Source: Asticcacaulis sp. SL142
GTDB lineage: Bacteria; Pseudomonadota; Alphaproteobacteria; Caulobacterales; Caulobacteraceae
Reading direction: 5' to 3'
DNA: 64,000 bases
NCBI RefSeq assembly: GCF_026625745.1
Contig: NZ_CP113061.1
Location: 186,001-250,000, forward strand
The position numbers and the translations under genes were made by a program. Positions 3,501 to 63,344 of this stretch are shown here, one piece after another (within the stretch, counting starts at the first letter, position 1; every line of letters starts with the position of its first letter). A model generated the notes under the pieces. That model was not told the DNA's origin and did no database searches. It worked only from the letters and a program-made list of their open reading frames with translations.

Positions 3501-3523
3501 CAATGCGGAAAGCGCTAAAATTT

Positions 3524-3648
3524 CTCCTCCCTACGCAGTGGGGAGGTGCCGAGTTTACGAGGCGGAGGGGTATTTGCGTCGTACAACAAGCTACCCCTCC
3601 GTCGGTCTCGCTACGCTTGCCGCCACCTCCCCACTGCGTAGGGAGGAG
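3524..3648. repeat. Double palindromic repeat element (copy D)
   Basis: A perfect 25-bp inverted repeat has its left arm at 3524-3548 and right arm at 3624-3648. Inside it lies a second inverted repeat, 3561-3572 against 3592-3603 (11 of 12 matching). The outer arm reads CTCCTCCC...GGGGAGGTG, the same skeleton as the elements at 53.9, 54.4 and 63.1 kb. It sits between xerD and accA and contains no plausible gene. This is a short dispersed palindrome of REP or MITE type; I see no target-site duplication. Confidence 0.85.
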
Positions 3649-3745
3649 ATGGGCGTCATTTTTCGGCTTTTCCGAATGATCGCTTGCTGTATAAGGCCAG
3701 ACTTTATAATTTGCTCGCCTTAAGCGGTGTTGTGGGATTCCTTTG

Positions 3746-52956: not shown

Positions 52957-53898
52957 ATGCGCCGACCGCCGCCCCCGAAGGAAGTGACCTCGTTAGACGA
53001 TGTACTGCATGAGGTGTCGGTGCTGGTGAAGCCGCACTTCGGCAAGGGGCGGCCCGCCGACTACATCCCCGAACTGGCGGCTGTCGATCCGATGAAATTT
53101 GGCATGGCGGTCGCCACCGTCGAGGGGGATGATTACGGTGTCGGCGATGCCGATGAGCCGTTTTCGGCCCAGTCGATCACCAAGCTGTTTGCGCTCGGGC
53201 TGGCGCTCAACCGGTTGGGCGATGAAGTGTGGACGCGGGTGGGTAAGGAGCCTTCGGGAACGCCGTTCAACTACCTGTCGCAGTTGGAACAAGAGGCCGG
53301 TGTGCCGCGCAATCCGTTCATCAATGCCGGGGCTTTGGCGATTACCGATATCCTGCTGGATGTGGTCAGGGAGCCCGCCAATCTGGTGCGTGATTTTATG
53401 GGGGTGTTGGCGGGGGAGTCGCTTAGCATTGACGATGCGGTGGCACGGTCTGAGATGGACACCGCCTATAAGAACCGCGCCATTGCCAATCTGATGCGCG
53501 CTCAGGGCACGATCAGCCATGACCCTTCGGCGGTGATTGAGGCCTATTGCCGTCAATGCGCGGTGTCGATCACCTGTCGGCAATTGGCCAAGGCAGCTTT
53601 ACCTTTGGCGGCGGCGGGCTATTCGCCGGTGATGGAGGAAAGCATCTTCCCGGAGCGGCTGACACGAAGGCTAAATGCCTTGTTGCTGACCTGCGGGATT
53701 TATGACTCGGTCGGATCATTTGCGTACCGGGTGGGTTTGCCGGCCAAAAGCGGGGTCGGCGGGGGGATTGTCGCGGTCATCCCCGGCCGGGCGGCGGTTG
53801 CCGTCTGGTCGCCGGAGCTGGATCGTTACGGCACGTCGGTGGTCGGGGTGTCGGCGCTGGAACACTTCAGCCGTCTGACCAATTGTTCGGTGCTGTGA
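52957..53898 (+). CDS. glsA: Glutaminase
   Basis: Converts glutamine to glutamate plus ammonia; serine-dependent beta-lactamase-like fold. Seen: the SxxK motif in FSAQSITKLFALG, the NAGA motif in NPFINAGALAITDILL, SCRQ-like ITCRQLAKAALPLAAAG, and the Gly-rich C-terminal KSGVGGGIVAVIPGR with VWSPELD. 313 residues, normal. Followed by the first palindromic element. Confidence 0.95.
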   Translation: MRRPPPPKEVTSLDDVLHEVSVLVKPHFGKGRPADYIPELAAVDPMKFGMAVATVEGDDYGVGDADEPFSAQSITKLFALGLALNRLGDEVWTRVGKEPSGTPFNYLSQLEQEAGVPRNPFINAGALAITDILLDVVREPANLVRDFMGVLAGESLSIDDAVARSEMDTAYKNRAIANLMRAQGTISHDPSAVIEAYCRQCAVSITCRQLAKAALPLAAAGYSPVMEESIFPERLTRRLNALLLTCGIYDSVGSFAYRVGLPAKSGVGGGIVAVIPGRAAVAVWSPELDRYGTSVVGVSALEHFSRLTNCSVL

Positions 53899-53910
53899 TT
53901 TGGGCGTGTA

Positions 53911-54079
53911 GCCCCCCTCCGGCGCTTTGCGCCACCTCCCCCAAGTGAAACATTTATATAGAATTGAAACAAAGTGCGTTGGGGGAGTAATAGTATTTTT
54001 TACTCCCCCAACGCACAATCTTAACGGTTATACTCCTCGTGTCACTTGGGGGAGGTGGCGCGCAGCGCCGGAGGGGGGC
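53911..54079. repeat. Long double palindrome (copy A), upstream of the DUF559 gene
   Basis: Outer arms of 38 bp (53911-53948 and 54042-54079) match at 36 of 38 positions in inverted orientation. An inner perfect 17-bp palindrome (GTGCGTTGGGGGAGTAA at 53974-53990 with its complement at 54000-54016) has a 9-base loop. Each outer arm itself contains a mini-hairpin (GGCGC...GCGCC). The right arm ends in a GGAGG that serves as ribosome site for the GTG start at 54082. Confidence 0.95.
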
Positions 54080-54081
54080 TT

Positions 54082-54480
54082 GTGAAACCGAAATACCAAC
54101 TGGCCCGAACCTTTCGCAAGGCCCTGACACCGCCTGAATTGATGCTGTGGGACCGGATAAAGCGCAGGCAACCGGACGGCCCGACCTTTCGCAGGCAATA
54201 TGCTATCGGCGCCTATGTCCTTGATTTTTATTGTATCAAGGCGCGGTTAGCCGTCGAGGTCGATGGTGAGGTTCATAATCTGCCCGATAAGGCGCAAAAT
54301 GATGAGGTGCGTATCGCTTGGTTGCAAACTAAGGGCATTGGGACCTTGCGCATTCCGGCCAGGGACATATTTGAGCGACCGGATGACGTGGCCGACGGGG
54401 TGTGGTTGATGGCGGTTGAGCGGCTCAGGGCTGGTGTTAGCCCCCCTCTGTCACTGCGTGACATCTCCCCCAAAGGATAA
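54082..54480 (+). CDS. DUF559 endonuclease-like protein embedded between palindromic elements
   Basis: 132 residues. A basic N-terminus (ARTFRKALTPPELMLW) is followed by FRRQYAIGAYVLDFYCIKA and LAVEVDGEVH, the PD-(D/E)xK/Vsr-like core of DUF559 (Asp of VLDF, Glu of EVDG), then RIAWLQTKGIGTLRIPARDIF. I start at GTG 54082 because GGAGG lies 7-8 bases upstream; that site belongs to palindrome A. The last residues (GVSPPLSLRDISPKG) and the stop are written by palindrome B. An in-frame start at 54046 lies inside palindrome A and would add only element-encoded residues. No methyltransferase neighbours; biological role unknown. Confidence 0.85.
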   Translation: MKPKYQLARTFRKALTPPELMLWDRIKRRQPDGPTFRRQYAIGAYVLDFYCIKARLAVEVDGEVHNLPDKAQNDEVRIAWLQTKGIGTLRIPARDIFERPDDVADGVWLMAVERLRAGVSPPLSLRDISPKG

Positions 54481-54609
54481 ATCTACTTAGACTGGCAACT
54501 CAATGCGTTGGGGGAGTAAAAGAAATTATTACTCCCCCAACGCACAGTCTTAACGACTATGCGCAACGTGTCATTTGGGGGAGGTGGCGCGTAGCGCCGG
54601 AGGGGGGCT
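54439..54609. repeat. Long double palindrome (copy B), downstream of the DUF559 gene
   Basis: Same architecture as copy A: outer arms (about 54439-54477 and 54571-54609) and an inner 17-base palindrome with two 16-17 base arms (TGCGTTGGGGGAGTAA at 54504-54519 and its complement near 54529-54544). The right arm is nearly identical to the A right arm; the left arm differs but keeps its mini-hairpin by paired changes (GTCAC...GTGAC instead of GGCGC...GCGCC). The right edge is adjacent to the selO stop codon (TTA at 54609-54611 on plus). Confidence 0.93.
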
Positions 54610-56030
54610 TAATTCGCCGCCAACCCCAACGCCTGCCGGTAGGTTTCGATCTCATCCAGTTTGGCATGGAAACCTGACCAGTCGTCATCGCGGTCAATGG
54701 CCGCCCACAGGGCTTCGATATCGTCAATCAGCAGGCTGACGGGCTCAGGCGCGGCAAACAGCGGATGTTTCAGGCGGTCCGCATCTTTCGGTTCAAAATC
54801 ACTCAGCAAGTTTTTGAAAGTGTCAAAGATTTCACCAGTATAGAACTGACCGCGCGGGCCAGACAGGGCGCGGGCCTCACTGATCAGGCCACCGAACCAG
54901 TCGAAATATACGCCCTCAAATGAACCCGGATTCGGATGCAGAGCGGCTTGCAATTTAAACGTCGCCTCGACCAGTGCCTGGTCTTTGTCAGCCTTTAACG
55001 GTTTGAGGTTCAACCGGTTGAGCACAGCCTCACGGGCGGCGGCCTCATAACGCGGGCCGAAGTCATTGAGGCTGTCGATCAGCCGCGCGCCGTCGCAAAT
55101 CTGGGCCAGACAGCGCGCCAGTTGCGTCAGGTTCCAGAACACCGCATCGACCTGACGGCCATAGGCATAGAGCCCGCCTTCGTCAAAATAGGCGGCGGTG
55201 AAATAGGCGTCGTAATAGGGCAAAAACCGGTAGGGGCCGTAGTCAAAGCTCTCACCCGTGATATTCATATTGTCGGTATTGAGCACACCGTGGACAAAGC
55301 CCGCCATCATCCAGCGCGCCACCAGGTTCGCCGTCCGCGTCACACACAGGTCAAACACACGCGCGACCTGATCTTCGCCCTCAAGACCGGCGGCATCAGG
55401 GTAGTAATTGTCCGCCACAAACCCGATCAGGCCGCGCATGGTCTCAAGCTCGTTGAGATAGGTCAGCCGCTCAAACGTGCCAAAGCGGATATGGCTGTGC
55501 AACAGCCGCACCAGCACCGATGACCGCGTGGGCGACGGTTCGTCACCGCGATGAAGCGCTTCACCGGTCTCGATCAGTGAAAATGACCGCGATGTCGGCA
55601 CCCCCAGCGCCTCCAGATAGGCGGTCGCCAGCACCTCACGCACACCGCCTTTGAGCGTCAGCCGTCCGTCACCACCCCGCGACCAGGGCGTTCGGCCTGA
55701 GCCCTTGGTGCCGAGGTCGAGGAGACGGCCCTGATCATCGCGAAGTTGCGCAAACAAAAAGCCGCGCCCGTCACCGAGGTCAGGGTTGTAATGGCGAAAC
55801 TGATGGCCGTGATAGCGCAGGGCCAGAGGTTCAGGCTGGTTGTCGGGCAAAGGCGTAAACCGGCCAAAATGGCTGATCCACGCGTCATCGTTAAGCCCCT
55901 CAAGGCCAACAGTAATCGCTGCCCGATCATTGCGGTAGCGTAAGGTGGTTTGCGGAAAGTCAGCGGCCTTGACCCGATCAAACAGGTCAAGGCCGCTATG
56001 GAGCAGGCGCGGATCAGGGGTATAGGTCAT
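54609..56030 (-). CDS. selO: Protein adenylyltransferase SelO (YdiU/UPF0061 family)
   Basis: Pseudokinase-fold enzyme that transfers AMP to protein Ser/Thr/Tyr. Seen: LALRYHGHQFRHYNPDLGDGR, LGTKGSGRTPWSRGGDGRLT (ATP region), KGGVREVLATAYLEALGVPT, and VHGVLNTDNMNITGESFDYG. 473 residues. The C-terminus (IETYRQALGLAAN) lacks the usual NPKYVLRNYL-type segment and terminal Cys/Sec of E. coli-like SelO, so it belongs to a shorter alphaproteobacterial branch. Follows the TonB receptor gene by 37 bp. Confidence 0.93.
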   Translation of the reverse strand: MTYTPDPRLLHSGLDLFDRVKAADFPQTTLRYRNDRAAITVGLEGLNDDAWISHFGRFTPLPDNQPEPLALRYHGHQFRHYNPDLGDGRGFLFAQLRDDQGRLLDLGTKGSGRTPWSRGGDGRLTLKGGVREVLATAYLEALGVPTSRSFSLIETGEALHRGDEPSPTRSSVLVRLLHSHIRFGTFERLTYLNELETMRGLIGFVADNYYPDAAGLEGEDQVARVFDLCVTRTANLVARWMMAGFVHGVLNTDNMNITGESFDYGPYRFLPYYDAYFTAAYFDEGGLYAYGRQVDAVFWNLTQLARCLAQICDGARLIDSLNDFGPRYEAAAREAVLNRLNLKPLKADKDQALVEATFKLQAALHPNPGSFEGVYFDWFGGLISEARALSGPRGQFYTGEIFDTFKNLLSDFEPKDADRLKHPLFAAPEPVSLLIDDIEALWAAIDRDDDWSGFHAKLDEIETYRQALGLAAN

Positions 56031-62924: not shown

Positions 62925-63344
62925 GGGGGAGAGGTCCTCAGAGGGTGGGTTTGGTGATAATTTACCGTCACTATAACCTGCACAGATTTAAGAACCCCTA
63001 AAACAGCACCATAATTTATCATTTTTGCAGACAGGGGCTCGCCCCTGCACCCGGAACTTGGAGCCAGCGGACAGGGCGGTGCCTTTTTCTCCTCCCTATC
63101 GAGCCTTTGGCGAAGATGGGGAGGTGGATCGGCGCGTGAGCGACGAGACGGAGGGGGATTGCGCCGCTGTGATTTCCACCCACCGTCCTTAGTTTTGCGT
63201 GATGCCCTAAAGCCGGTGCAGACCACCTCGTCTCAGCCATCCCCCTCCGTCGCGGACTACGCCGCGCCACCTCCCCATGCCTATGGCACGGGGAGGAGAA
63301 AGACAACTTATCCCCGTCGTGCGAGTTTCCCCCATGCTTAGGGG
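62925..63344. other. 420-bp intergenic region dominated by palindromic sequence
   Basis: No gene found. It contains a small perfect hairpin CAGGGGC/GCCCCTG (63032-63038, 63041-63047) and, from 63089 to 63298, palindromic element C. The promoters of the Hpt gene (minus) and the 63345 gene (plus) must share the remaining sequence. Confidence 0.6.
63089..63298. repeat. Double palindromic repeat element (copy C)
   Basis: Outer arms 63089-63127 (CTCCTCCC...GGGGAGGTGG) and 63267-63298 (CCACCTCCCC...GGGGAGGAG) are inverted at their ends but diverged in the centre; inner arms CGGAGGGGGAT (63149-63159) and ATCCCCCTCCG (63239-63249) are inverted. Same skeleton as copies A, B and D but with a longer, diverged middle. 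Confidence 0.8.

Follow-up and report, generated by a model that had tools for sequence, protein, structure and literature searches.

Systems that pair a palindromic repeat with an enzyme are already known. The hairpins of repetitive extragenic palindromes (REPs) have a short conserved guide sequence at their base, and their copying is attributed to REP-associated tyrosine transposases (RAYTs), which are HUH (Y1) transposases; homing endonucleases copy introns. In a 64,000-nucleotide stretch of the genome of Asticcacaulis sp. SL142 (the window, meaning the whole stretch analyzed), a small gene for a DUF559 nuclease lies between two palindromic elements, A and B, which an original prediction had interpreted as a nuclease-plus-palindrome unit. 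The comparisons below strongly support such a unit through its association, signs of mobility, and solitary copies: DUF559 genes and palindromes occur together with a conserved anatomy and polarity and a linked ancestry, the units occupy varied positions and are present or absent at a given site, and the nuclease is under purifying selection. It appears somewhat probable (roughly 0.6) that DUF559 and its pyrimidine/purine palindromes constitute one compact, selfish mobile unit, with the nuclease acting on its own palindrome.

Among described repeats, the BoxC/PIT/TM (potential intrastrand triplex) motif is reported from >260 genomes, with 23 copies in Escherichia coli MG1655, five as inverted pairs (PMC4666352). 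The same source describes triplex formation in vitro for the E. coli motif, genetic instability around these motifs in E. coli with no known enzyme, and PIT elements that lack promoter or terminator activity, and it treats the repeats as orphans, with neither a nearby mobility gene nor any function of the flanking genes; neither DUF559 nor ycjD, the DUF559 gene of E. coli, is mentioned in its available portion. In Enterobacter sp. 638, 100 such hairpins were reported and presumed to have a role in termination (PMC2869309).

In the window, the predicted pair of related elements of about 170 bp proved to be a direct repeat of 173 nt (80% identity; 529 bp start to start), each copy with outer arms enclosing an inner palindrome (Table 1). 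The outer arms extend over 42 nt in element A (53910-53951 and 54039-54080, 93% complementary) and 39 nt in element B (54439-54477 and 54571-54609, 79% complementary), and when folded as single-stranded DNA neither element was equaled in stability by any of 200 dinucleotide shuffles. Element A ends in GGAGGGGGGCTT directly before the GTG at 54082 and includes a probable ribosome-binding site, while the DUF559 stop codon (54478-54480) lies within element B, which encodes approximately the last 14 codons, stop included. The expectation that the gene borrows signals from both elements was borne out; the accompanying statement that it has almost no sequence of its own needs a slight correction, as ~119 codons lie between the elements and belong to neither. 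A TTG at 54046, inside element A, is a possible alternative start. Each side of the gene is occupied by a full doublet and not a half. Solitary relatives were correctly placed at 3.5 and 63.1 kb; both are inverted doublets of related sequence with the same design as A and B. Hairpins with polypyrimidine arms occur at only three sites in the window, the two inner palindromes and 63270-63296 (mean of 0.6 in base-shuffled windows). Both elements immediately adjoin the end of a neighboring gene, element A beginning 11 bp past the glutaminase stop (53896-53910) and element B extending onto the stop codon of the minus-strand neighbor at 54609 (54609-54611). The frames of these neighbors read as genes for a glutaminase and for a SelO-type protein, and no methylase gene lies beside DUF559.

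Table 1. Features of the DUF559 locus and of the solitary doublets, in window coordinates.
Feature	Position	Strand	Description	Evidence
Element A	53909-54081		complete inverted doublet, right end against the DUF559 GTG	repeat finder, sequence, fold z -14.3
Inner palindrome, element A	53974-54016		arms 53974-53990 / 54000-54016, 17 nt, 100%; 9-nt loop	repeat finder
Triplex-type signature facing the gene	54048-54078	+	purine tract GGGGGAG 54048-54054, spacer hairpin, mirror block GAGGGGGG 54071-54078	
Shine-Dalgarno GGAGG in element A	54070-54074	+	probable	by eye
DUF559 nuclease gene	54082-54480	+	GTG start, 132 aa	open reading frame list, Pfam
Element B	54438-54610		complete inverted doublet	repeat finder, sequence, fold z -10.7
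Inner palindrome, element B	54504-54544		arms 54504-54519 / 54529-54544, 16 nt, 100%; 9-nt loop	repeat finder
Solitary inverted doublet without DUF559	3523-3649			sequence; ends by eye
Solitary inverted doublet without DUF559	63088-63299			sequence, hairpin at 63270; ends by eye

Four DUF559 matches are present in the source genome, a single contig of 3.7 Mb, and by eye all four loci have palindromic sequence on both sides, differing in type. Loci L003 and L004 have in common CTCCCCCTGTTGCAGGGGGAG, a second hairpin, and AGGGGGTAA. The arms at L001 are CCCCTCC.../CCTCCCC, with only a partial half on the 3' side, and the window locus has its own palindrome type. In L004 (G000:C1:1609145-1609288), the DUF559 frame is internally shortened and both palindromes are retained. 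A hairpin test requiring perfect 7-nt all-pyrimidine arms scored the window locus on both sides, L001 on one side, and L003 on neither because of single mismatches in the arms; this test likewise misses imperfect arms elsewhere, as at E. coli ycjD.

The same test was applied to DUF559 loci that were the best-scoring of each search and not a random draw, and because the hairpin definition was derived from the first loci, a fairer test is provided by the samples at class, phylum, and cross-phylum level. A hairpin was present on at least one side of 58/64 units obtained by searching the own genome, the genus, and the family (both sides, 40/64), 26/30 from the class search (both sides, 13/30), and 28/28 from the phylum search (both sides, 15/28). 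For the Pseudomonadota in total, 112/122 units had a hairpin on at least one side and 68/122 on both, compared to 24/288 control genes with a hairpin on either side and none with both (from 20 genomes, each sampled over 20 kb at the same fixed coordinate), the excess beside DUF559 that the original prediction called for. Background tiles of 260 nt from the same loci scored in 9/369 and 0/177 cases for the first two sets and 5/166 for the phylum set. Vsr genes, which encode the same fold, lacked hairpin flanks entirely (0/27; 27 of 30 loci usable), and a glutaminase control across 23 genomes returned seven with a hairpin, at least four of them owing to an adjoining DUF559 cassette or doublet. 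A solitary palindrome of the DUF559-associated kind follows the glutaminase gene in one other genome context (L078, G010), where the neighbors are different.

The two flanks of a unit also resemble one another. Similarity between the 5' and 3' flanks reached a score of ≥37 in 47 of the 62 units scored, with distal windows at ≤33 save for one value from a tandem cluster; the set is drawn from 64 units, two with flanks too short, and omits L005-L008, the duplicate L037, and domain matches <230 bases (L004, L055, and fragments). Ten of the 15 low scores came from fused DUF559-RibD frames, where the sequence scored as 3' flank lay beyond the distal end of the fusion. By folding energy alone, DUF559 flanks were hard to distinguish from those of controls. 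In the class sample, 17/30 units had a flank similarity of ≥40 compared to 0/87 controls. The RibD-linked cassettes, found in ten relatives, have palindromes on the 5' side and a 3' palindrome that is mostly read through in frame, generating a DUF559-linker-RibD open frame in most of the ten. Long DUF559 frames had been considered as unflanked controls and were ruled out, as they proved to be cassettes with a RibD-like frame downstream. At three loci (L023, L024, and L032), two or three DUF559 cassettes occur in tandem, one of those in L023 incomplete.

Beyond the Pseudomonadota, a cross-phylum set comprised the best 80 of at least 581 relatives, from 13 groups of approximately phylum rank, with labels assigned from record titles and with the A. 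machinosus and A. endophyticus loci counted twice (in this named set and as G008 and G005). Hairpins were present at 62/80 loci, on both sides at 33 (background, 12/856 tiles), and a flank similarity of ≥40 occurred at 46/80 (controls, 2/194). The groups with hairpins included the Planctomycetota (4/4), Ignavibacteriota (3/3), Chloroflexota (3/3), and one archaeal locus (Methanophagales). Nine plasmid copies of DUF559 (Deinococcus, Sphingomonas, Sphingobium, Azospirillum, and cyanobacteria) had comparable flanks, one of them (L262) judged by eye only, and some of the nine had genes of a common pathway on either side (paaD and paaZ, for example). In two cyanobacterial plasmids (L262 and L263), DUF559 lies between repeats of another sequence, CCCCTAAATCCCC...GGGGACTT, with a similar design, and two phage records that are unverified scaffolds (MT835756 and MT835749) have DUF559-like frames with short pyrimidine-arm hairpins nearby. 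An origin as plasmid or phage cargo was rejected, as similar proteins were present in just 39/72,556 plasmid and 2/50,697 phage records; proteins similar to the window DUF559 are therefore mainly chromosomal.

At the level of whole genomes, the common hairpin (CCCTCTCCC-loop-GGGAGAGGG), which together with a third block is the BoxC/PIT/TM motif, was tracked across 289 genomes of the class. Three or more copies occurred in 42/71 genomes with DUF559 and 9/218 without, where DUF559-positive denotes a match at E ≤ 1e-10, such that 22 genomes with weaker matches are counted as negative and a looser definition shifts the numbers. In all, 958 of 1,060 copies were in the 71 DUF559 genomes, a concentration opposite to the equal occurrence without DUF559 that had been named as grounds for refutation; the pattern read backwards occurred 18 times. 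Within the 26 taxonomic families that contain both kinds of genome, copies were higher with DUF559 in 19, lower in three, and tied in four (p = 0.0009), and two further qualifying families (zero versus zero) add ties only. The same comparison for 213 Pseudomonadota genomes outside the class returned 18/31 genomes with DUF559 and 10/182 without. The highest counts in single genomes were 498 (G668), 326 (G485), and 208 (G690).

The units have a consistent anatomy. Measured between its outer edges, a unit flanked by hairpins on each side had a median length of 491 bp (n = 67; quartiles, 462 and 526 bp). Of the 177 nearest hairpins, a third tract mirroring the hairpin arm (≤1 mismatch) was present on the gene side only for 109, the far side only for 18, both sides for 32, and neither for 18 (p = 5e-17). 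Exact mirror copies were identified beside 151/367 asymmetric hairpins, whereas direct copies numbered 77 and permuted arms gave an expectation of 70.8; a mirror block is a requirement for an intrastrand triplex. In the control stretches, 20/26 hairpins were paired at distances of 71-139 bp, and the cassette therefore looks like a doublet with the nuclease gene as its middle.

In E. coli, copy no. 9 of the published motif list (1,351,239-1,351,204; PMC4666352) lies ~170 bp beyond the end of ycjD, whose stop codon falls within the loop of a second BoxC copy, an imperfect one, with a full copy after it (L202 2541-3261, MG1655). The chance of a given gene lying ≤250 bp from one of 18 such loci is ~0.3%. 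The stretch of ycjD plus BoxC was found over ≥80% of its length in 3,364/5,426 E. coli genomes; other lineages of the species reportedly have eefRABCD at this site (PMC12817139).

Evidence for movement comes from a comparison of five closely related genomes, a clade of five species (G000, G005, G008, G014, and G020). The cassettes at L003 and L205 occupy non-orthologous sites and have sharp palindromic ends, with similarity that starts at AAGAACTCC and stops at GTTCT between unlike flanks, and at L220 a 503-bp cassette is inverted in place with flanks collinear with L003 and L214. At site S2, a 500-bp cassette is located at the stop codon of a gene in G020, G005, and G008, and the site is contiguous and without a palindrome in G000 and G014, the clean contrast between empty and occupied sites that had been sought, compatible with gain or with loss. 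The window site also has DUF559 in G020, G014, and G008, and in G005 a single doublet with an interior inverted relative to element B. Sites S4, S6, and S7 have other sequence in the cassette-free genomes and therefore provide no evidence on the direction of change. Terminal inverted repeats are common to gene-bearing and gene-free copies, as in pairs of insertion sequences and miniature inverted-repeat transposable elements. Further, nuclease and palindrome are linked by descent: a palindrome was held in common by 13/13 non-orthologous pairs with DUF559 identity ≥70%, by 4% of the 26 pairs between 60% and 70%, and by ≤2% of pairs <60% (466 pairs, Mantel-like p = 0.0005).

These sites bear on two alternatives. 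DUF559 could be a free-standing homing-type endonuclease that cuts doublets and inserts a copy of its own gene there, with the half-palindromes as homology arms and the doublets spreading by other means; this is unlikely, as the cassette-free form of S2 is without any doublet, so that insertion into an existing doublet is not needed there, and the copies of the hairpin strongly track DUF559. Less probable still is that the palindromes serve as hot spots of recombination, which host repair or some other enzyme moves, with DUF559 merely carried or tolerated. The instability around TM motifs in E. coli with no known enzyme (PMC4666352) fits such a role, and both the in-place inversion and the solo doublet of G005 are obtainable by ordinary recombination between repeats, but a passenger gene does not account for the absence of control genes framed on both sides, for the specificity to DUF559 across many phyla, for the linkage of nuclease and palindrome sequences, or for a nuclease that is kept functional.

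The window protein matched DUF559 (PF04480) in Pfam at 1.6e-22, with otherwise only a sub-cutoff match to MTES_1575 and no match to the Vsr family (PF03852); the NCBIfam DUF559 model PRK09767 scored 57.4, below its cut-off of 218. The fold of this type of DUF559 is that of Vsr and of the catalytic domain of the homing endonuclease I-Bth0305I. In an alignment (A3) from which 5/48 proteins with stops were excluded beforehand, E19, D48, and D74 were invariant and H65 near-invariant; these are possible counterparts of the E-D-x-H-D active-site residues, although in another alignment D48 faces a non-acidic residue. The ratio of nonsynonymous to synonymous substitutions (dN/dS) had a median of 0.15 for 17 same-site DUF559 pairs, and the protein has therefore been kept functional by purifying selection. 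Genomes had up to 13 DUF559 matches. Assignment to a defense system was set aside; PADLOC returned a partial, 52-residue match to the 1,078-position DpdF model (E = 7.6e-4) and a weaker mREase_II match. That DUF559 is a host Vsr-like or structure-specific repair nuclease with the palindromes as its terminators or regulators is very improbable: its Vsr fold and purifying selection, the DUF559 domain of Caulobacter VsrA (CCNA_02930) with its SOS response when the methylase ScmA is absent (PMC12907096), and the termination role presumed in Enterobacter sp. 638 (PMC2869309) would suit it, but true Vsr genes are palindrome-free, PIT elements are reported without promoter or terminator activity (PMC4666352), and as many as 13 matches per genome, presence and absence at S2, and solitary doublets are unlike a plain repair gene.

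If DUF559 and its palindromes do form a selfish mobile unit, its layout would be a half-palindrome, the nuclease, and an inverted half-palindrome with ~490 bp between the outer edges, and the solitary doublets would be gene-free relatives of this cassette. The Vsr-fold nuclease may recognize its own palindrome when folded as a hairpin or intrastrand triplex on an exposed single strand and would nick or cut there, after which repair or recombination could copy the cassette or doublet elsewhere or convert a doublet into one that carries the nuclease.

Several observations weigh against this interpretation. The Bacteroidota are weak in both measures (hairpin, 5/10; flank similarity, none), and the sole Omnitrophota locus in the cross-phylum set was without a hairpin. 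Three genomes without DUF559 are rich in the common hairpin (G558, 107 copies; G481, 57; G380, 18), a fourth with 105 copies (G578) has only a weak DUF559 match, and short palindrome matches occur in G006 (two) and G024 (seven), both without DUF559. Conversely, 23/71 DUF559-positive genomes of the class are without any common hairpin, some of which may have arms of a different type, like those in the window. The excess of mirror copies is small when one mismatch is allowed (336 mirror compared to 295 direct of 367), and the 13 linked cassette pairs were drawn from few lineages. The target duplication expected of a newly occupied site was not clear at S2, with only a possible TAA, and the absence of the gene from the window site in G005 could equally result from recombination between repeats.

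A broader interpretation, that DUF559 and its palindromes represent a new class of transposable element that is widespread among bacterial phyla, occurs in one archaeal genome or more, and is the source of the BoxC/PIT/TM repeats, is put forward tentatively, at somewhat less than even odds. In such a class, a solitary Vsr-fold nuclease would recognize the pyrimidine-purine hairpin or intrastrand triplex, with hundreds of copies in some genomes. A nuclease-palindrome unit was not found described in the literature searched, which left out most subscription journals. If proved, mobility directed to a hairpin or triplex by a solitary Vsr-fold nuclease would be categorically new. A candidate partner enzyme can be named for the long-unexplained BoxC/PIT/TM repeats, and as E. 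coli K-12 possesses it as ycjD, the question is testable there. A cellular role is thereby proposed for a widespread domain of unknown function, with bearing on reports in which a lone DUF559 gene is taken for a repair enzyme akin to Vsr (PMC12907096) or appears at a variable site as a frame without explanation (PMC12817139).

Compared to known systems, the common hairpin resembles BoxC/PIT/TM in its pyrimidine tract, short loop, purine tract, and mirror third block, often as inverted pairs, whereas the window elements differ in their arms and in an additional spacer hairpin. The two-armed intergenic CIR repeats of Caulobacter, a related bacterium, are similar in outline and were ruled out, as CIR have GANTC (PMC2229807) and elements A and B have none; two Rfam matches far below the gathering scores (35.1 against 149 and 19.8 against 83) were judged to be chance. 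Unlike Vsr, the window protein has no PF03852 match and no adjoining methylase, the latter a weak criterion as unlinked Vsr-methylase pairs have been reported (PMC12907096), and true vsr genes are not framed by palindromes. DUF559 resembles the EDxHD homing endonucleases through the fold of the I-Bth0305I catalytic domain, but the window protein consists of one domain and lacks the extended DNA-binding region that I-Bth0305I is described as having (PMC3943268), lies in neither an intron nor an intein, and is framed by palindromes. The predicted parallel with REP-RAYT held for the palindromes around one small gene, the gene-free inverted pairs elsewhere (as in REPINs), and the lineage-specific palindromes, and failed for the enzyme, which by Pfam and fold is a Vsr-fold nuclease of PD-(D/E)xK type in place of an HUH Y1 transposase. 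By membership, the DUF559 unit belongs to neither REP-RAYT nor Vsr, and it is best read, by analogy, as a unit that would work like a REP-RAYT system or a homing endonuclease.
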